IMG/VR virus record: IMGVR_UViG_3300009093_000074
Coordinates: 1 to 42,875 of that record
From: a virus
DNA length: 42,875 bases
Reading direction: 5' to 3' (one strand)
Shown: positions 2,300 to 24,600 of the stretch, piece after piece
How positions within the stretch are numbered: the first letter of the stretch is position 1
How the letters are laid out: each line of letters starts with the position of its first letter
Translations under genes and position numbers: made by a program
The notes under the pieces: generated by a model
What the model was told of the DNA's origin: nothing
Seen by the model: the letters and a program-made list of their open reading frames with translations, nothing else
Databases searched by the model: none

Positions 2300-3025
2300 A
2301 TGATCAATGACGCAGATAAGAAAGCAATGGCCTTCAAGATCAAGGCCCTGCTAGCCAAGACCACCGAGGCGGGCTGTTCGGAGGCCGAGGCCATGATGGC
2401 CGCGCATAAGGCCAAGGAGTTGCTGGACAAGTATCAGATCGACCTTTCCGAGCTCGACCTCCGGGAGGAGGGCACGAGTGAGGCCAGCGTGGCGCGAAAT
2501 ATCATCGCGACGGAACTGCAAAAACAGGTCGGGCGCTATTGTGAGGTCAAAAGCTGGCAGAGCCCAGCAGAAGGGAAGCTCAAATTTTTGGGCCTACAAA
2601 GCGATGTTTTCTTCGCCGAGTGGCTTTTGCTGGCCCTCACCAGCTTTGTCCAACGCAAGACCCTGGACTACAGCATGAACGCCGCGAAGATTTACCAAAA
2701 TGAGGTGAATGAATTCCAAATCGGCTGTATCAGGCGGATCAATGCGAGGTTGAAGGAGGAAATCGAACGCCGAGACGCGGAGAGGGCCAGCCAGGTCATT
2801 AACTCCACAGGGCGGAGCCTCATGGTCTTGAAGGACCAGATCGTGACTGAGGCCTGGGTCAAGAAGAATTTGAACCTCTCAAACAGAGGCGGAACCAATC
2901 GCGGAGCCCCAGCTTCCCAGCACTACATGGCGGGCCACGCAGCCGGAGGGGAGGCCCGATTTGCCCGGCCCGTCGCGAGGGATGAATTCCAGACTCGCCA
3001 GCTGACAGCGGGGGCAAAGAAATGA
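2300..3025 (+). CDS. DUF2786 family protein, 241 aa
   Basis: The N-terminal 50 residues match the DUF2786 pattern: a helix with KIKALLAKT, then EAEAMMAAHKAKELL and a short Tyr-Gln-Ile-Asp segment. This domain is common in phage and bacterial proteins of unknown biochemical role. The rest is helical with a charged region around residues 160-190 and a Gly/Ala/Arg-rich low-complexity tail. A TTG codon 57 bases upstream also opens the frame. I prefer the ATG at 2300 because it follows the AATCGGAG leader element and leaves that leader untranslated. Family assignment is by eye. Confidence 0.75.
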   Translation: MINDADKKAMAFKIKALLAKTTEAGCSEAEAMMAAHKAKELLDKYQIDLSELDLREEGTSEASVARNIIATELQKQVGRYCEVKSWQSPAEGKLKFLGLQSDVFFAEWLLLALTSFVQRKTLDYSMNAAKIYQNEVNEFQIGCIRRINARLKEEIERRDAERASQVINSTGRSLMVLKDQIVTEAWVKKNLNLSNRGGTNRGAPASQHYMAGHAAGGEARFARPVARDEFQTRQLTAGAKK

Positions 3026-3072
3026 TCAGTCAGCAGGAATAAAACAGCGTCGAGTAAAGGAGTTGCGTCATC

Positions 3073-3285
3073 ATGGCTGATTTGATTTTAGAACCTATCT
3101 TGGGGCCGATCATGACAGAGGGGAAACTTTCCGTCAATCTCCGGGTTACGAAGATCAACGCGAAGCTGGCCAGCAAGAGGATTGTCTTGGAGCTTGGGGG
3201 CATCGAGATTTCGATCCCATTGGCGGAGGTGGACGGGCTTCTCGCCTCTCTAATCGAAGAACGCAATAAGGGTCTGAATTTATAG
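3073..3285 (+). CDS. Hypothetical protein, 70 aa
   Basis: A 70-residue protein preceded by AAGGAG at a normal distance. Alternating hydrophobic residues suggest a small beta-rich fold with a final helix. No motif is recognised. It is followed by a 295-base region with no confident gene. Confidence 0.6.
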   Translation: MADLILEPILGPIMTEGKLSVNLRVTKINAKLASKRIVLELGGIEISIPLAEVDGLLASLIEERNKGLNL

Positions 3286-3580: not shown

Positions 3581-4066
3581 ATGCGCGGAATTCTTATCGA
3601 TGCCACCAGTCGGGCCATTAGCGAAATCACTCTTCCAGACATCAAGTATGGAGACTTGGACGAAGCCGATTATAGGGCCAATTGGGAGGGGATGAAAAAG
3701 CTCTTGGAGACCACCATCGTCGAACCCGTTCGAATGGGCGCGGCCCAATTGTGGGTCGATGAGGAGGGCCTCTTGAAGCCTGAGCCAGGGCCTTTCTTCC
3801 GCCTCGGGATTCCAGGAGCCTATGGGCCGATTATTTCGAAAAAGGGCATCTTGCTGGGCTGTCAAGGCCCGGAGGGCGATCCGAGCGATTTCCCCTTTGC
3901 CATGAGCAAAGTCTGGGGCCTCATCGATTGGCTCCCCGAAGGGACCAAATTCTTGGAGATCGAAACCCGCAAGGGCGAGACCGAGCACCCAGTCCTGGGC
4001 AAGCTGACAGCCATCAATCGGGTTTCGATTTTCCAGACCCCAGACGGGAAGAGGATCGAGCAATGA
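3581..4066 (+). CDS. Hypothetical protein, DUF3846-like, 161 aa
   Basis: A 161-residue protein beginning with an ILIDATSRAISE pattern, followed by a helix, a QLWVDEEGLLKP segment and an FRLGI strand. This order (strand, helix, 'VDEEGLL', glycine-rich strand) recalls DUF3846 phage proteins, but I assign it only tentatively. The second half contains an FAMSKVWGLI-type helix. It is preceded by the AATCGGAG element and its stop overlaps the helix-turn-helix gene that follows. Confidence 0.6.
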   Translation: MRGILIDATSRAISEITLPDIKYGDLDEADYRANWEGMKKLLETTIVEPVRMGAAQLWVDEEGLLKPEPGPFFRLGIPGAYGPIISKKGILLGCQGPEGDPSDFPFAMSKVWGLIDWLPEGTKFLEIETRKGETEHPVLGKLTAINRVSIFQTPDGKRIEQ

Positions 4067-4350
4067 GTCGCCCCTCGTCAGTCACCAATGTTATCAAATT
4101 CAAACCAAGGACCTTTACCAGTGCGGAGGCGGTCATTGACGCTCTGCGAAGCGAGCTCTTCGCCAGTGGCCGCTCGTGGAGCGATATTGCCAAACAGGCC
4201 AACTGCTCGCCATCGACAGTGCAGAGGCTCGCCAGCGGGAAAACCAAGTGGCCCGCGAGGACGACGCTCTTTCCACTCCTTGCCAGCTTGGACTTGGAAT
4301 TTACTTTCCAACGCAAAATCCGGAGGGCTCCCGATGCCCGGAATTCTTGA
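4063..4350 (+). CDS. Helix-turn-helix DNA-binding protein, 95 aa
   Basis: A 95-residue protein with a Cro/CI-type helix-turn-helix at about residues 40-65: SWSDIAKQANCSPSTVQRLASGKT, where the first helix ends at ANC and the recognition helix is STVQRLA. The C-terminal segment is basic (QRKIRRAP). This is the layout of a small phage transcription regulator. It is coupled to the preceding gene by an ATGA overlap, and its end overlaps the next gene by 17 bases. Its operator is not evident; the nearby 9-bp inverted repeat at 3487-3530 is one candidate. Confidence 0.7.
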   Translation: MSRPSSVTNVIKFKPRTFTSAEAVIDALRSELFASGRSWSDIAKQANCSPSTVQRLASGKTKWPARTTLFPLLASLDLEFTFQRKIRRAPDARNS

Positions 4351-4570
4351 CCAGTCGCCCGAGGGCGGGGTCTACCTCGGGGACGGGGTCTATTGCAAAT
4401 TCGATGGCTTCCAGCTCTGGTTGACAGTCGGCCATCATCAGAACACGCCCCTCGTGGCTCTGGAGCCAAGTGTCTTCGCCGAGCTCCTTCGAGTGGCCCG
4501 CCAGATCAATCAATTCGCGGGACAGGAGCACTTTCTTGGCGCTGGCTTCGAGGGAGTTCGCCAGTCATGA
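4334..4570 (+). CDS. Conserved phage protein with GDGVY motif, 78 aa
   Basis: A 78-residue protein containing VYLGDGVYCKFDGFQLWLT followed by ALEPSVFAELLR. This pattern (GDGVY, FDG, a hydrophobic strand, then LEP and a helix) recurs in small phage proteins of unknown function. It probably forms a compact beta hairpin plus helix. GGAGG precedes the ATG. It overlaps the genes on both sides. Confidence 0.65.
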   Translation: MPGILDQSPEGGVYLGDGVYCKFDGFQLWLTVGHHQNTPLVALEPSVFAELLRVARQINQFAGQEHFLGAGFEGVRQS

Positions 4571-17452: not shown

Positions 17453-17499
17453 ACCGCCTCGCTGGCACTAATCACCTGCTTGATCCCAGGTGCAATTAA

Positions 17500-17524
17500 A
17501 GGGGCGCAAATGCCCCTCTTTTTA
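17500..17524 (+). terminator. Intrinsic terminator after ssDNA-binding gene
   Basis: AGGGGC (17500-17505), six-base loop, GCCCCT (17512-17517), then CTTTTT: a GC stem with a T-tract. A second hairpin, CACCTG/CAGGTG (17473-17478, 17487-17492), lies just upstream. It would end transcription before the ParB-methyltransferase gene, which must be read through or from its own promoter. Confidence 0.8.
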
Positions 17525-17567
17525 TGAGGGCCCCTGTCAGAGGCCCGCCAATCTTGGGGACCCCTTC

Positions 17568-18983
17568 ATGGACGACGCCAGCCAATTTAAGACCTTCTCG
17601 CGTGAGACCTATCTTATCCCTCTCGACTCGATTTTGATCGACAAGCCCAAGCGCCAGAGAAAAGCCTTTGTCGTGGATGACCTGCTGCCAAGTATGGAAA
17701 AGCGGGGGCTCCTGACTCCCATCCTAGTCCGGCGGGATGATCATACCCTTGTCGCCGGGGAGAGGAGGGTCACAGCGGCTCGCCAGCTGGGCTGGAAGGA
17801 AATCCTTTGCCGATATGTCGAAGAGGTCGACCCGATCGAGCTCCAGATTATCGAATGGGAAGAAAATTTCAAGCGCAAAGATTTGACCTGGGAAGAGCAG
17901 GCCCGGGCGATTTTTGAAATCCACCAGCTCTATTTGTCCCTCGATCCCGAGTGGACCGCAGCGGAGACCGCCAGCAGTGTCGGGATTTCCCAAACCGTTG
18001 TCAGCAAGCACATTCGACTCTGGAACGAAATTTCCAGTGGAAATGATCGAGTCACCGGAGCGACTTCGGCAGAGAACGCTTACAATTTGCTGGCCCGGAA
18101 AGACCAACGGGCCAATGTCAGAGCCCTGGAGCAACTTATCGGGGCTTCGCCGGAAACACCAATCGCGCAACCGTCCAGCGGGATCGTAGTCGATCTGCAG
18201 GGCAATTCGGTTTCGACTCCGGCCTCGCCAGTGGTCCCGATCCTGCAGCAAGATCCGAAGGACGCCAGCAAATCCCTGACGGACATTTTCCACGGCTCGT
18301 TCCTCGACTGGGCCCCCTCCTATCGAGGCCCCAAGTTCAACCTCATCCATTGTGACTTCCCATATGGGGCCAATTTGTTTTCCGGTCCGCAGGGAGGAGC
18401 AGGGGCCGATATCCAGTACGAGGACACTCGGGACGTCTTTTTCACCCTGCTGGAATGCCTTTGCGATAATCTGGAGAACTTCACCTCCCTCTCCGCGCAT
18501 TTCATGTTCTGGTTCTCTTTCGAGCATTATGAGCCTATCAAAGCGATGTTCCGCAATAAAGCCCCCTCGATCGAGTGGGTCCGCGATCCGCTGATCTGGG
18601 GCAAGTCCGACAATGCGGGCATAATTCGGGACGCCCGCAAGCACCCTCGCCATACCTATGAGGCTTGCCTCTTCGGTTTCCGAGGCAATCGCAATGTCGT
18701 CAAAGCAGTTGGGGATTTCTATGCCGCGCCAACGGATCGCAAGCTCCATCCCAGCGCCAAACCCGAGCCCATGCTGCGAAACTTCTTCACTATGCTGGTT
18801 GACGAACACACAGAGTTATTGGACCCCACCTGTGGTGCAGGCTCTAGTCTCCGAGCAGCTGACTCTCTTGGGGCCAAACGAGTCTTTGGAATTGAGCTCG
18901 ACCCTGAACACGCGAGCATTTCCCAAATCTCTTTGAACAATGCGAGACGCCTGCGTAGTGCCTCGAAAGTGGTGGAGAAATAA
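17568..18983 (+). CDS. ParB-like domain fused to DNA methyltransferase
   Basis: A 471-residue two-domain protein. The N-terminal part has a ParB/Srx-like domain: PLDSILIDKPKRQR, then HTLVAGERRVTAARQLGW with GERR at residues 64-67. A helix-turn-helix follows near residues 130-155 (TASSVGISQTVVSKHIRLW). The C-terminal half is a methyltransferase with HCDFPYG (motif IV, D263) and DPTCGAGS (motif I, D419). Motif IV before motif I marks a beta-class N6-adenine or N4-cytosine enzyme. The usual DPPY is DFPY here. Possible roles are site-specific protection of phage DNA or regulation. The start is the ATG at 17568. Confidence 0.82.
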   Translation: MDDASQFKTFSRETYLIPLDSILIDKPKRQRKAFVVDDLLPSMEKRGLLTPILVRRDDHTLVAGERRVTAARQLGWKEILCRYVEEVDPIELQIIEWEENFKRKDLTWEEQARAIFEIHQLYLSLDPEWTAAETASSVGISQTVVSKHIRLWNEISSGNDRVTGATSAENAYNLLARKDQRANVRALEQLIGASPETPIAQPSSGIVVDLQGNSVSTPASPVVPILQQDPKDASKSLTDIFHGSFLDWAPSYRGPKFNLIHCDFPYGANLFSGPQGGAGADIQYEDTRDVFFTLLECLCDNLENFTSLSAHFMFWFSFEHYEPIKAMFRNKAPSIEWVRDPLIWGKSDNAGIIRDARKHPRHTYEACLFGFRGNRNVVKAVGDFYAAPTDRKLHPSAKPEPMLRNFFTMLVDEHTELLDPTCGAGSSLRAADSLGAKRVFGIELDPEHASISQISLNNARRLRSASKVVEK

Positions 18984-18984
18984 A

Positions 18985-19239
18985 ATGCCCCTTTCCGATT
19001 TCGTCAAATCCTGCGGAAGTTGCAATAACACCTTGCCCATTCCCGAGCGTGAGGGCCAGGTCCTTTGCATTTTCAATCCCCCGATCCCAGTCGTGCTGAA
19101 CGTCTCGCGACATGAGAGCGGGGCCATTGGAGGGATCGAGCAAATCGCCGTTTTTCCAATCATGGACAAAAGGAGCGTTTGTCGAAAGTGGGAGGCCCAA
19201 GAGCAAATCGAACTTCCAGCACCAGCTAATTCAAAATGA
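18985..19239 (+). CDS. Cysteine-containing hypothetical protein, 84 aa
   Basis: An 84-residue protein with CGSC near the start, a single Cys in the VLCIFNPP strand and another in SVCRKWEA. Four cysteines arranged this way could bind a zinc ion or Fe-S cluster. The family is not recognised. It starts one base after the methyltransferase gene, behind GGTGGAGA, and its stop overlaps the UDG/exonuclease gene (ATGA). Confidence 0.6.
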   Translation: MPLSDFVKSCGSCNNTLPIPEREGQVLCIFNPPIPVVLNVSRHESGAIGGIEQIAVFPIMDKRSVCRKWEAQEQIELPAPANSK

Positions 19240-20378
19240 CCCACGTTGCCTTGCCCCCGTTCTCCTGCTGGAGTGGCCCCCGGGACGCTCGCCTTGTCAT
19301 CGTCGGCGAGGCCTGGGGCAGGAGGGAGAACGAAAATCGCAAGCCCTTCGCCGGGGAAAGCGGGAAAGAGCTCTTCCAGATGCTCGGCGAAGGGATGCCT
19401 CACGTCGCTCCGGCGCTCCATGCCGAGATAGTCGCTCTTTTCAAGTACGACATGGCCTGGCTCGGGCATCGGGACAAGTGGCTTAACGCGGCAAGCATCG
19501 CCTTCACGAACACCATCAACCTGCAGCCCTTCAATAACGATTTCCGGGAACTCTGCTGCAAGAAAGCCGACCTGCCAAGGGATTACGCCCTCCCGTCGGT
19601 CGAGCAGGGAAAATACTTACGGCCTGAATTCCTCCCCGAGTTGGACCGTCTTTTCGACGAGCTTCGCGAAGTCGGCCCCAAACTTGTCGTGACAGTCGGC
19701 GCGAAAGCCTCCTGGGCCATCTTGGGCGATACCAGGATTTCTCAAATCCGAGGCGCCATTGCGGACTCCCACCTGGGTTTCAAAGTCCTGCCGACTTACC
19801 ATCCTGCCGGGGTCCTGCGGAATTGGAGCTGGAGACCAATTGTCGTCGGGGACTTCGTGAAGGCCGAGCGGGAAATGCACTTCGCTGAGATCAGGCGCCC
19901 GTCTCGCAAAATCCTCTGGGACCCAACAATCGAAGAGGTCGAGAAATGGACCGCCGAAACCCTGGCCCTTCGACCGGAATACCTCAGCTCCGACACCGAG
20001 ACCATGAAGCGGCAAATCACCATGATCTCTTTTGCTCGCGCGAAGAGTGACGCGATTTGTATTCCATTTGTCGATAAGAGGTTTCCGGGGCTGTCTTACT
20101 GGCCCGATGTTGCGACCGAAGTCCGAGCCTGGAATTGCGTCGCCTCTCTCTTGGAGAGTGAGATCAAAATCCTCTGGCAAAACGGCCTCTACGACATGCA
20201 GTATATTCTGCTGCTGGGGATCAAGGTCAAGTCGGATGACGATACCATGCTGTTGCATCACTCCCTTCTGCCCGAGATGCCGAAGGGCCTGGGCTTCCTC
20301 GGAGCCGCTTACACGGACGAGCCAAGTTGGAAGCTGATGCGGAAGGCCAAGCAGGACACGGAGAAGAGGGATGAATAA
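19236..20378 (+). CDS. UDG-like domain plus 3'-5' exonuclease (N-terminal half of split PolA)
   Basis: A 380-residue protein. Residues about 18-225 match the uracil-DNA glycosylase superfamily, family 4-like: GEAWGRRE at 24-31 with PFAGESG, and LPTYHPAGVLRN with H189. Residues 235-380 carry the first two motifs of a DNA polymerase A proofreading exonuclease: D253 and E255 in SSDTET, and N316/D320 in NGLYDMQ, followed by DDTMLLHHSL. The protein ends (TEKRDE) before motif III, which is found in the polymerase at 21693. The UDG-exo-PolA order is known from the SPO1 phage polymerase as one chain. I see no family 4 Fe-S cysteine set. Confidence 0.82.
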   Translation: MTHVALPPFSCWSGPRDARLVIVGEAWGRRENENRKPFAGESGKELFQMLGEGMPHVAPALHAEIVALFKYDMAWLGHRDKWLNAASIAFTNTINLQPFNNDFRELCCKKADLPRDYALPSVEQGKYLRPEFLPELDRLFDELREVGPKLVVTVGAKASWAILGDTRISQIRGAIADSHLGFKVLPTYHPAGVLRNWSWRPIVVGDFVKAEREMHFAEIRRPSRKILWDPTIEEVEKWTAETLALRPEYLSSDTETMKRQITMISFARAKSDAICIPFVDKRFPGLSYWPDVATEVRAWNCVASLLESEIKILWQNGLYDMQYILLLGIKVKSDDDTMLLHHSLLPEMPKGLGFLGAAYTDEPSWKLMRKAKQDTEKRDE

Positions 20379-20556
20379 TTTTCGCGAGGGTGATATTGTA
20401 AAACTAAAATCCGGCGGGCCTCCGATGACGGTTGGGAAAGTCACCGAGAAGTATATAACCTGTCATTGGTTTGTACCGGAGCAATTTTTCCACGGGATTT
20501 ACGAAAAGACATTCACCGAAGCAACTTTAACAAGAGTCGAAGGAGTCGAAAAATGA
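20371..20556 (+). CDS. YodC-like (DUF2158) protein, 61 aa
   Basis: A 61-residue protein with GDIVKLKSGGPPMTVGKV, a CHWF segment and a final FTEATL strand, fitting the small YodC/DUF2158 family of unknown role. It overlaps the end of the UDG/exonuclease gene by eight bases and is the first of five genes that separate the two polymerase halves. Somewhat AT-rich. Confidence 0.7.
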   Translation: MNNFREGDIVKLKSGGPPMTVGKVTEKYITCHWFVPEQFFHGIYEKTFTEATLTRVEGVEK

Positions 20557-20753
20557 CCACCAATCAACGCGCTGACATAGCAAATATCCACGACACCATG
20601 AAGAGGGAAATTCAAAAAGCCCCTGATGACGGGCCATTCTCGGACCCGATTGCGCTTGGACTTGTGACTTTGCTTTGCTTCTTTGCCACCGACATCAACC
20701 GCATTGCCGACTCTCTGGAAGAGCTTTGCATCAACACGAAAGGCCGGCCCTAA
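20553..20753 (+). CDS. Hypothetical protein, 66 aa
   Basis: A 66-residue protein with one hydrophobic stretch (DPIALGLVTLLCFFATDI) that could be a short membrane helix, and a helical C-terminus. ATGA coupling to the YodC-like gene; AGGAG upstream. No family recognised. Confidence 0.5.
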   Translation: MTTNQRADIANIHDTMKREIQKAPDDGPFSDPIALGLVTLLCFFATDINRIADSLEELCINTKGRP

Positions 20754-21112
20754 TGCTCGAAGACGCAATTCGCCGGGCCTTTCGAGACCGCTCGAGGGTC
20801 AAAGTGCAGGGAAGTGATTTCAAATACGAGGGGACTCTGCAAGCGGTTTTCCATAAGCGAAGCGGGGTCCTCCGCGTCGTGGTGGAGGATGACAACCGGG
20901 TCCTGCATGTCGCCTATCCTCGCGAGATCGAACTGGCCCTCCAATTATCTGCTAAACACGAAATCCCACTTGTTTGTCCTCTTTGTGGAGGCAAACTTTT
21001 ACAGCATTATGACGGATATGACATGGCGAATGATAAGAAATTCGTCAAGACCCTGTGTTTGGAGTGCAGGCACGTTTTTGAAACCCATCCAGCCTTGGAG
21101 GAAGTAAAGTGA
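20753..21112 (+). CDS. Small beta domain fused to zinc ribbon, 119 aa
   Basis: A 119-residue protein of two parts. Residues 1-63 form a compact beta domain (KYEGTLQAVFHKRSG, then LRVVVEDDNRVLHV) like small phage proteins found alone elsewhere. Residues 70-115 form a zinc ribbon with CPLCGGK and CLEC. A probable nucleic-acid binding accessory protein. The start overlaps the preceding stop (TAATG); its stop overlaps the GTG of the next gene. Confidence 0.6.
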   Translation: MLEDAIRRAFRDRSRVKVQGSDFKYEGTLQAVFHKRSGVLRVVVEDDNRVLHVAYPREIELALQLSAKHEIPLVCPLCGGKLLQHYDGYDMANDKKFVKTLCLECRHVFETHPALEEVK

Positions 21113-21483
21113 TTTACCTCGCGAGCCAATACTCCCACCCCGACGCGATCATCCGGCACACTCGCTACTTGCTGGCCGAGGAGATCACGGCCCTCCTCAT
21201 CAAGCGAGGCCTCATCGTTTACTCCCCAATCGTGCATTGCCATGAAATGGCCAAGCGCCATTCCTTTCCTACTGACGCCAAATTTTGGGAGAAATACAAC
21301 AACTCCTTCATCCGCCATTGCGCGAGGGTCCTCGTCCTCGTAACCCCGGACTTGCACACCAGCAAAGGCGTGATGGCGGAAATCGACTTCGCGAGGCACT
21401 GTCATATCCCGGTGCATTTCATCGACCGGGAGGGGCTGCCAGTGGAGTGGGCTCCGCCAGCCCCAAGCGAAATGGGCTTTTAA
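21109..21483 (+). CDS. DUF1937 protein (nucleoside deoxyribosyltransferase-like)
   Basis: A 124-residue protein matching DUF1937: IYLASQYSHPDAIIRHTRY at the start, a VYSPIVHCHEMAK segment, FWEKYNNSFIRHC, and SKGVMAEIDFARHCHIPVHFI near the end. The fold is related to nucleoside 2-deoxyribosyltransferases and similar nucleotide hydrolases, so a role in nucleotide metabolism is likely, with chemistry unproven. GTG start on a GTGA overlap. Confidence 0.72.
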   Translation: MIYLASQYSHPDAIIRHTRYLLAEEITALLIKRGLIVYSPIVHCHEMAKRHSFPTDAKFWEKYNNSFIRHCARVLVLVTPDLHTSKGVMAEIDFARHCHIPVHFIDREGLPVEWAPPAPSEMGF

Positions 21484-21484
21484 C

Positions 21485-21691
21485 ATGAAACCGATGCGCG
21501 AGTGGTATTTCTTCCCAATCGTCATGCCCCTGAATGCCGAGGGCCAAGGTCCTGCTCGGGATGGCGAAATCGTTTCGACCATTACCTGGGAGGTTTGGAA
21601 CCAAGACCTTGAGTCGCTTTCTTCCCACGAATTCCTCGCCGATGCAGTTGACGAAGCAATTCGCCTGAATGAAGAAAAAGGCTGGAATTGA
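21485..21691 (+). CDS. Hypothetical protein, 68 aa
   Basis: A 68-residue protein with an aromatic N-terminal strand (WYFFPIVMPLN) and a C-terminal acidic helix (ADAVDEAIRLNEEKG). No recognised family. It starts one base after the DUF1937 stop and lies directly before the polymerase gene, whose likely start follows one base after its stop. Confidence 0.5.
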   Translation: MKPMREWYFFPIVMPLNAEGQGPARDGEIVSTITWEVWNQDLESLSSHEFLADAVDEAIRLNEEKGWN

Positions 21692-21692
21692 A

Positions 21693-23291
21693 ATGCCCAT
21701 CTTCGACACAGCGGAATTGACCCAGACTTCTCTTGCCGAGGGGAAAATTTCCCAGGCCCAGAACGATCAGCTCTATTGTGCTTTGGACAGCTGTGTGACC
21801 TTGGAGGTCTTTCAGGAACTCGGTCGGGAGTATAATCAAGTCCCGACGATCTACAATTTCGCCCGTGCAATGCAGGCCCCTTATTTGGAAATCATGCAGA
21901 GAGGGTTCAAGGTCGACGAGACCGCGAGGCACCATGCCTGCGCCGAGTTGAGAGATAAGATCAATTATCTCCAAGCCTTGCTGAACGAATACGCCGGGGC
22001 CGTCTGGGACAAGCCCTTGAACCCGCGAAGCCCTCTGCAATTGCAGCAATTCTTCTACCAGACTATGAAACTCCCCGAGGTCTGGATTTCCCAGAAGGGC
22101 CAAAAGAAGCTCTCCACCAATCGGGAGGCCCTCGAGAAGCTGGACCAGTACCTCTATGCCCGACCTTTTGTCAACATCATTCTGCAAATTCGTGATTTTG
22201 CCAAACAACTCTCTGTCTTCGAGACTGAGATCGATCCTGACGGACGCTACCGAACGAGCTATAACATCGCGGGGACTGAAACCGGACGACCGAGCAGTAG
22301 CGAGAATGCTTTTGGGACTGGCGGCAATGCTCAAAATATCGCCCCTTCCCTCCGGTACGTTTTCGTGGCCGACAAAGGGTGGAAACTCTGCGTCATTGAC
22401 CTGGAACAAGTCGAGGCCCGAGACGTTGGGTTTTTCATTGGCAATCTATTCGGAGACTGGGCTTTTCTGGATAACTGCGAGAGTGGAGACCTTCATACCA
22501 ACAATGCAAAACTGGTCTGGCCCCATCTCGGCTGGACAGGTGATAAAAAGCGAGATCGTGAGATCGCGGATCAAATCTTCTACCGGGACTTCTCCTACCG
22601 GGACATGTCAAAAAGGGGAGGTCATCTCTCGAATTACTATGGAACCGCTTTTACAATGGCACGGAGCTTGAAAATCCCCCCAGCCGTCGCGGAAGAATTC
22701 CAGGCACGCTACGTCCGAGGCGGATACGTGAATGGCCAGTGGATCACCCCGGCCTTCCCGGGCATCGCCCGCTGGTGGCAGTGGACGGCCCAGCAATTGC
22801 AGACCCTGCATTATATCGAAACCCCCTTCCAGCGGAAGAGGTACTTTTTCGGCCGCCCAGGCGACGACACGACGCTTCGCGAGGCAATAGCGTTCCTCCC
22901 TCAATCGACTACGGCTGATAGAATGAACCTCGGGCTCTGGCGGACCTGGAAGAAAATGCCCCAGGTCCAGCTCCTCGCCCAGACCTATGACTCAATTACT
23001 TTCCAATATCAAGATCGAGGTCATGAATATGAAAGCGCCCTTATCTCCGAGGCCCTCCAGCACGTTCGAGTGGAACTTAAGGCGAATAACGGGCGATCGT
23101 ACGTCGTCCCAGGGGAGGCCAAAATCGGCTGGAACTGGGGACCCCAAATTACCCAGGCAGACGTTGACAAAGCAAGAGCCCGCAAAGGCCGGGTCCCCCG
23201 GCTCAACATCGAAGGTCTGACAAAGTGGAAGGCCGACTCGCCAGACCCTCGCCAGCGGGCCTTTGGCCTCGATCGTGTCGGCGGACGTTAG
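21693..23291 (+). CDS. Family A DNA polymerase (C-terminal half of split PolA)
   Basis: A 532-residue family A DNA polymerase. It begins with the third exonuclease motif, YCALDS with D32, but lacks motifs I and II, which are on the protein at 19236. Palm and finger motifs follow: motif A DLEQVEARD with D236, motif B RDMSKRGGHLSNYYG with R303 and K307, and motif C QTYDSI with D433. Motif B has His where Taq and E. coli PolI have Phe. Motif C has YDS instead of HDE. The pair likely acts as a two-chain replicative polymerase. An ATG at 21669 is possible but 21693 avoids the overlap. Confidence 0.82.
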   Translation: MPIFDTAELTQTSLAEGKISQAQNDQLYCALDSCVTLEVFQELGREYNQVPTIYNFARAMQAPYLEIMQRGFKVDETARHHACAELRDKINYLQALLNEYAGAVWDKPLNPRSPLQLQQFFYQTMKLPEVWISQKGQKKLSTNREALEKLDQYLYARPFVNIILQIRDFAKQLSVFETEIDPDGRYRTSYNIAGTETGRPSSSENAFGTGGNAQNIAPSLRYVFVADKGWKLCVIDLEQVEARDVGFFIGNLFGDWAFLDNCESGDLHTNNAKLVWPHLGWTGDKKRDREIADQIFYRDFSYRDMSKRGGHLSNYYGTAFTMARSLKIPPAVAEEFQARYVRGGYVNGQWITPAFPGIARWWQWTAQQLQTLHYIETPFQRKRYFFGRPGDDTTLREAIAFLPQSTTADRMNLGLWRTWKKMPQVQLLAQTYDSITFQYQDRGHEYESALISEALQHVRVELKANNGRSYVVPGEAKIGWNWGPQITQADVDKARARKGRVPRLNIEGLTKWKADSPDPRQRAFGLDRVGGR

Positions 23292-23328
23292 TCTCCAGTC
23301 TTCGGCCTCTCAATTCGCCTGGCCTCTA

Positions 23329-24600
23329 ATGCCTGAAATTTTGCAATTCCCTCCGAAAGAGTCCCTCTCCGTGGTGGAAGATTTTGTTGACTCATTCTTG
23401 CGCCTGACCGAGGGGACGCGGACGCCAGCTCTCTTCCGACTGTGGAGTGCCATTGCCTTGCTGGCCGGGGCCCTCGAGCGCAGGGTCTGGATCAACAACG
23501 GAGATGGGACAGTCTTTCCGAATATGTACACCCTCTTGGTCGCACCCCCAGGAGTGGGCAAGTACGTGATCGAAGACGTCCGGCAGCTCTGGGTCGACGC
23601 CTGCGAGCCCGGGACAAAAATTCCCGCCTTCCACGTCGCCGGGGACAGCATGACAAACGCGAGCCTGATCGACTCCATGGCCGAGGCCGCGACGACCTTC
23701 ATTCCACCAGGGCAACCCCCGTTCAAGTACCACTCTCTCCTCGTCGCAGCCGAGGAATTCTCCGTCCTCGTCCCGAAATACGACATGGAATACATTGGGA
23801 CCCTGAATTCGATCTGGAATAACAAATCGAGGCATGAGGAAAGAAGGCGTCACGGCAAGCAGCAAAAAACCATCATCGACAACCCGCAGTTGAACATGCT
23901 CGCAGGGGTCCAGCCGTCTTACTTGGCCAGCTTGTTCCCCGAAGACGCTTGGTCCACTGGCCTCGGCCGAAGGCTGATGATGATCTATTCCAGCGAGACC
24001 CCGAAGCTCTCCCTCTTCTACAAAGCAAAGCGGGAAGAGGGGCTTCGCAGCAAGATCCTCCACCGGCTTTCCCAATTCCGTGGCCTCTTCGGCAACATGC
24101 AGTGGGAGGAAGAAGCCATGCTCTTCATCGACCAATGGTACATGAGCGGGGAATTGCCCGTCCCCAATCATTCGAAACTCCAATTTTATTGCAAGACCCG
24201 AGGAGTCTTTGCCCTCAAACTGGCCCTTATTGCTAGCATCTCGCGCTCGAACGAAATGGTCATCCGACTGGAGGATTGCGATCGCGCCCTGGGCTGGATG
24301 CTCGAGGCCGAGCGAGTGATGCCGGATATCTTCCGTGCCATGGTCGGGAAGTCGGACAAAGACGTCATCTCCGAAATGCATATGTATGTGACAGCCAAGT
24401 TTGGAAGCATGGCCGGAAAACCCCTGGCCGAGCGCAAGGTCAAAGGAGAGGCTATCCGACAGTTCCTCCTCGAAAGAGTCCCGCATGAGAAAATCGAGTC
24501 CATCATCAAAGCCGCCGAAGCTGCCAACATCATCGCCCGTGTCGGCGGAACTCAAGACGATTGGGTCCCTCGGCCCAAGTGGGGACCGGGCGTTGAGTGA
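23329..24600 (+). CDS. DUF3987-like ATPase (putative replicative helicase/primase partner)
   Basis: A 423-residue protein resembling DUF3987-type ATPases of phage replication modules. It has a helical N-terminus (VEDFVDSFLRLTEGT), a P-loop APPGVGKY at residues 72-79, then AEEFSVLVPK and a GRRLMMIYSSE block, and a long helical C-terminus. The Walker A residue after Lys is Tyr instead of Ser/Thr, which may impair Mg-ATP binding. ATG at 23329 is used; an upstream TTG at 23263 would overlap the polymerase. Directly after the polymerase gene, a role in helicase loading or unwinding is likely. Confidence 0.65.
   Translation: MPEILQFPPKESLSVVEDFVDSFLRLTEGTRTPALFRLWSAIALLAGALERRVWINNGDGTVFPNMYTLLVAPPGVGKYVIEDVRQLWVDACEPGTKIPAFHVAGDSMTNASLIDSMAEAATTFIPPGQPPFKYHSLLVAAEEFSVLVPKYDMEYIGTLNSIWNNKSRHEERRRHGKQQKTIIDNPQLNMLAGVQPSYLASLFPEDAWSTGLGRRLMMIYSSETPKLSLFYKAKREEGLRSKILHRLSQFRGLFGNMQWEEEAMLFIDQWYMSGELPVPNHSKLQFYCKTRGVFALKLALIASISRSNEMVIRLEDCDRALGWMLEAERVMPDIFRAMVGKSDKDVISEMHMYVTAKFGSMAGKPLAERKVKGEAIRQFLLERVPHEKIESIIKAAEAANIIARVGGTQDDWVPRPKWGPGVE

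Follow-up and report, generated by a model that had tools for sequence, protein, structure and literature searches.

How can a DNA polymerase proofread when the active site of its 3'-5' exonuclease is encoded by two separate genes? The question is raised by an IMG/VR virus contig (IMGVR_UViG_3300009093_000074; 42,875 bases, analysed whole and referred to here as the window), in which a family A DNA polymerase, present in one copy in the whole record, is divided between two open reading frames (ORFs) on the plus strand. The first (N-half, 19236..20378, 380 aa) carries a family-4-like uracil-DNA glycosylase (UDG) domain and exonuclease motifs I (D253, E255) and II (N316, D320), and closes with a conserved tail, ...WKLMRKAKQDTEKRDE. 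The second (C-half, 21693..23291, 532 aa) opens with a conserved head, MPIFDT..., followed by exonuclease motif III (Y28..D32) and the thumb, palm and fingers of a family A polymerase. The split is real and ancient, with a single origin in the clade to which the window belongs, and, judging from residue conservation and structural modelling, the two chains most likely make up a functional polymerase.

The arrangement had been noticed in a first-pass annotation, made from the DNA letters alone, which placed the two halves and five intervening genes where the ORF coordinates now put them. The UDG-like domain that it read in the first protein matches Pfam PF03167 over residues 14-198 (E 1.6e-17), with the TM0511 glycosylase (1vk2), which we take to be a family 4 UDG, as a close solved relative, and the intact family A polymerase that it assigned to the second matches PF00476 (E 2.5e-29). 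On the PHROG polymerase family phrog_17, the N-half covers columns 549-814 and the C-half columns 808-1231; as these segments adjoin, no part of the polymerase is missing. The order of UDG, exonuclease and polymerase, as in the phrog_17 type (UDG-exo-PolA), is present but spread over both halves, and the exonuclease fold, which lies on a single polypeptide in Klenow-type PolA, is here encoded by two ORFs. The ORF list offers an alternative start of the C-half at 21669; however, ATG 21693 is probably correct because nearly all relatives open in the manner of M-x-I-I-x-T. With this start, the insert between the halves measures 1,314 nt and the D32 numbering holds, so that the residues named in the annotation, D253, E255, N316, D320 and YCALD32, are all as described. 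In a DNA-level search against phages, the window region found no match.

The split is not unique to the window phage. Viral contigs were scanned with the individual halves as queries and with half-specific alignments, and bacterial genomes were scanned too; the resulting counts are lower bounds, and the sampled junctions are not independent, some contigs being near-copies. In public viral contigs, at least 145 distinct junctions are cut at one and the same loop, far more than chance would give. Among the matches listed, the halves lie in order on one strand at every junction with enough sequence, and a solitary half occurs only at contig ends. Caulobacter phage Kuura, a cultivated, plaque-forming podophage, carries its polymerase in the same divided form, two genes separating the halves; its N-half (Kuura_029; the C-half is Kuura_026) is annotated as hypothetical, and the word 'split' is absent from the Kuura paper. 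In a tree of the joined halves, the 89 split representatives form one clade (SH-aLRT 99, and 100 in a second tree), to which intact enzymes, those of Microcystis phage Mel-JY34 and MW202489, are sister. The annotation had named one continuous gene in another assembly as a finding that would refute the split; none was found in close relatives among the matches listed, the nearest intact genes being those of the sister clade.

The residues expected to form the exonuclease site are invariant on both chains: D253, E255, N316 and D320 are identical in 137 of 137 N-halves, and Y28 and D32 in 133 of 133 C-halves, at a mean identity of the halves to the window of about 43-46%. In an alignment with the Klenow fragment (1d9d; Klenow numbering being chain position plus 323), the catalytic residues of the halves correspond to D355, E357, D424, Y497 and D501, and the break maps to a loop between exonuclease residues, just before motif III, which is where the annotation had placed it, past motif II and ahead of motif III of the exonuclease domain. 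The polymerase palm and fingers are present with motifs A and C (D227 in 129 of 133 C-halves; D433 in 123 of 133, the remainder being nine gaps and one N). Both genes are under purifying selection, with a median dN/dS of about 0.11 for the N-half (9 pairs) and 0.07 for the C-half (11 pairs). In addition, the two halves are inherited together: N-half and C-half distances correlate (r 0.84), with zero conflicting branches at support 0.99.

The loop itself differs between the intact and the split enzymes. From the conserved W-K to the conserved Y-N, the intact sisters count 17-18 residues, whereas the split clade reaches a median total of 36, with 13 in the tail and 22 in the head; the tail ends in K[RK][DE][DE] in most N-halves, and K377 is found in 136 of 137. 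Only in five related contigs (L033, L034, L035, L037 and L065) do the halves share a frame with a lone stop between them. Programmed read-through was considered as a general rule and rejected, since the other junctions have an overlap in another frame or intervening genes. In L034 and L065 the stop is a single in-frame TAA, and read-through could therefore be modelled. The AlphaFold2 model of the L034 read-through chain reached pLDDT 93.6 and pTM 0.90, with disorder confined to residues 328-338 (the junction) and the last eight residues; the head gives a short strand (339-342), and the helix of motif III (353-378) is in its place. A control with L065 as query and an alignment devoid of intact homologues yielded the same elements (pLDDT 90.5, pTM 0.86). 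By Foldseek, the read-through model matched Pol I with a TM-score of 0.76 (on target) and phage G20c Pol I with 0.72 over 753 columns, the matches spanning 650-750 columns. The L034 and L065 read-through chains are thereby predicted confidently to fold into a Klenow-like UDG-exo-polymerase.

Because the exonuclease residues are invariant, both genes are under purifying selection and the modelled read-through chain folds confidently, one proofreading site built from two chains is the most likely arrangement. Chain 1, comprising the UDG and the larger part of the exonuclease, would bind chain 2, with motif III and the polymerase, and restore the Klenow-like fold, D253, E255 and D320 from the former and Y28 and D32 from the latter composing the rebuilt site. 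The about 18 residues in excess of the intact loop, namely the K[RK][DE][DE] tail and the head strand M-[KP]-I-I-x-T, possibly provide a docking surface. Physical assembly of the halves and their proofreading activity are what we infer from this conservation and modelling.

Other accounts of two adjacent half-genes have to be weighed against such an assembly. An artefact of assembly or sequencing, as might be suspected of a window that is a single metagenome contig, has next to no chance of being the explanation, because independent assemblies from many samples, at least 145 junctions in all, share the same cut with the isolate Kuura, whose genome assembly was verified by restriction digestion (Kuura paper). 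Introns and inteins are classically found in phage polymerase genes, and an intron has been raised for MEP401 (PMC10580990), but it is highly improbable that the halves are rejoined by splicing, be it through a group I or II intron, a split intein or trans-splicing: neither the window region nor any of 12 related loci matched an Rfam intron, the overlapping insert genes leave no space for an intron core, and some junctions measure 0-2 nt or overlap, with nothing to splice. Nor does either half carry an intein segment or an intein-size extension, as a tail of about 13 aa and a head of about 22 aa leave no room for an intein; the annotation, too, had seen neither intron ends nor intein motifs. 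Finally, the halves might act separately, the C-half as a polymerase lacking proofreading and the N-half as an unattached UDG that carries an inactive vestige of the exonuclease. UDG and polymerase domains are able to act alone in other systems, yet this is distinctly unlikely here, where the exonuclease residues are invariant on both chains in more than 130 sequences, motif III would be useless on a lone C-half, both halves are kept in order on one strand at every sufficiently long junction listed, and N and C are co-inherited.

The origin of the break can be approached through the sister clade and the contents of the junctions. The sister clade consists mostly of intact polymerases. Within it, a lone HNH endonuclease gene (phrog_3377, E 8.8e-28) interrupts the same loop in L268, and as L268 is nested among intact enzymes with support 100, its break is independent. 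Closely related intact genes free of the insert exist for L268, L263/L265 being the nearest; for the window clade there are only more distant intact sisters. L288 and L294 are split between UDG and exonuclease, the intervening gene of L288 being HNH (E 2.8e-10), and further members of the sister clade are divided in the palm, by small genes or a methyltransferase-like gene. In the window clade, the halves are anything from overlapping by 4 nt to 2.8 kb apart, and at 15 junctions they lie within 30 nt; L165 was dismissed as an adjacent junction after its C-half start was recognized as miscalled. Empty junctions take the forms ATGA, TGATG and TAA-ATG, with a 4-nt, 1-nt or 0-nt overlap. The junction cargo comprises 266 ORFs in 181 clusters, the commonest being DUF7768 and DUF1937 members, and most of it is not endonuclease. 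A Pfam and PHROG scan of the insert proteins detected no homing endonuclease gene between the window halves, in agreement with the annotation, yet relatives carry HNH genes at several junctions of the same kind. Near-neighbour pairs of empty and filled junctions are L064/L062, L049/L041 (HNH), L046/L050 and L029/L031 (HNH), and the tree holds at least 7-9 changes between the two states. From the L268 break and the empty/filled HNH pairs, it follows that HNH genes do enter the loop and the junction.

We infer that an HNH insertion was also the cause of the split in the older clade. An intact UDG - 3'-5' exonuclease - family A polymerase gene would have suffered a single ancient break in the loop ahead of motif III (at about 469-487 in the numbering of E. 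coli Pol I), most likely through insertion of an HNH homing endonuclease gene; later loss of the endonuclease gene would have left a stop/start junction, sometimes empty and sometimes, as in the window, holding unrelated, changing small genes. The reading as a whole, a UDG-exo-PolA broken once whose halves bind and restore the fold and the proofreading site, with an HNH origin and later loss, is quite probable. Several points weigh against it. The modelled chain is a covalent read-through of relatives and a stand-in for two chains, the covalent tie biasing the model toward assembly, and family A polymerases are already well known to AlphaFold. The original insert of the window clade is not preserved, and its deepest split branches, L242 and L083, have empty junctions that a simple frameshift or a new stop/start could also produce. 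It is possible, if the more doubtful course, that fission took place by way of a stop/start overlap or frameshift in a permissive loop, with HNH and other genes landing later. Such an origin, which is compatible with two-chain assembly and concerns only how the break arose, would accommodate the empty junctions, those of L242 and L083 included, the repeated empty/filled changes and the bulk of the cargo; it sits less well with two gene-splitting HNH insertions in the sister clade, at the same loop in L268 and at the UDG-exonuclease boundary in L288/L294, and with published endonuclease-made split genes (PMC2988022).

Endonuclease insertions have split Aeh1 nrdA, T4 topoisomerase gene 60 and possibly phage 25 gp43, and the reassembled enzymes are active, as reviewed (PMC2988022). 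In Aeromonas phage Aeh1 (NrdA/MobE; PMC2988022; PMC3267527), an HNH homing endonuclease splits an essential DNA-synthesis gene, whose two products join to form an active enzyme; unlike in the window clade, the enzyme is a different one, the endonuclease is still present, and a single phage rather than an old clade is concerned. A split replicative polymerase whose halves co-purify and are active is known from Aeromonas phages 25 and 44RR (gp43A-gp43B; PMC2988022), but it belongs to family B and not to the UDG-bearing family A, and the review is silent on a cut through the exonuclease site. In MEP401, MEP402 and related OM43 phages (PMC10580990), a family A polymerase is encoded by two genes with a small gene between, whereas the cut lies inside the polymerase domain and the exonuclease is whole on one chain. 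Two-ORF PolA of the same broad group in Vibrio phage VS-ABTNL-3, Bacillus phage BSTP5 and MW202554 has its cut in the palm or beyond the exonuclease domain instead. The nearest intact relatives (Mel-JY34, MW202489 and sister contigs, e.g., L254-L284) share the same domains in the same order with similar neighbours, but in one gene, with the 17-18 aa loop where the window clade breaks. The interaction parts of Aeh1 NrdA are reportedly derived from a mobile element, as the title of Crona 2011 has it. The open-access literature, which the search covered, yielded no description of a family A polymerase severed at the exonuclease site, and the searched passages of a phage polymerase survey (PMC11348598) report no split through the exonuclease. 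Split phage enzymes are known, while this cut site and the preserved series of stages appear to be unreported.

Within the window, the five insert genes are all on the plus strand and joined head to tail, by overlaps of GATGAATAA, ATGA, TAATG and GTGA and then 1-nt gaps. Gene 1 (20371..20556), a DUF2158/YodC-like protein of 61 aa (E 4.3e-10), starts within the final N-half codons; gene 2 (20553..20753), small and with a hydrophobic stretch, has no family match and shares the ATGA overlap with gene 1; gene 3 (20753..21112), about 119 aa with a weak zinc-ribbon match, shares TAATG with gene 2; gene 4 (21109..21483) encodes a DUF1937 / nucleoside 2-deoxyribosyltransferase-like protein of 124 aa; and gene 5 (21485..21691), 68 aa, has no family match. 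The cluster of gene 4 recurs at 15 other split junctions, and deoxyribosyltransferase-like DUF1937/DUF7768 proteins occur in the gaps of about 32 other loci, including distant members; these proteins may be functional partners or merely common cargo. A deoxynucleotide monophosphate kinase and an endonuclease VII-like protein are also carried (L060 1471-2025, L051 7121-7591). Upstream of the polymerase lies a gene that fuses a ParB N-terminal domain with a DNA methylase (17490..18983, plus strand), and downstream a DUF3987 / phage primase-like protein (phrog_14296; 23263..24600, plus strand). Mel-JY34, an intact sister phage, shares the methylase - polymerase - DUF3987 order, and MW202489 shares the methylase - polymerase part of it.

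Further breaks were observed. The N-half of L220 is broken again, into a 227-aa UDG-only ORF and an exonuclease I-II piece (3972-4379), making three ORFs with the motif III-polymerase. C-half ORFs of about 750-815 aa occur in L013 (6004-8286), L015 (5959-8220), L045 (7351-9789) and L144, and in at least three of these the match is interrupted mid-way, which may reflect palm inteins or other in-frame insertions. Separate splits at a similar palm position are seen in L290/L291 (4689-4912), L296 (4728-5546), L285/L289 (about 4647) and L248 (4539-5071); in L290/L296 the break falls at query residue about 533/542, and small genes or a methyltransferase-like gene lie inside. In MW202554 (L246), the cut follows the exonuclease domain of the polymerase, and the gap holds an NrdR-like zinc-ribbon frame (2986-3138).

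It is conceivable, although unlikely, that the two-chain state has been kept as useful, with the UDG/half-exonuclease chain as a detachable proofreading and uracil-sensing subunit and the tail and head as its docking device; if true, phages could set what share of their polymerase proofreads. On the two-chain reading preferred here, the clade would possess a natural two-part proofreading active site, stable across all its members, and would offer a ready-made split polymerase. N-halves now labelled hypothetical, such as Kuura_029, can be named. The intact gene, the HNH-made break, and the empty and cargo-filled junctions are all preserved among living relatives, and thus the survival and aftermath of cutting an essential enzyme become directly testable.

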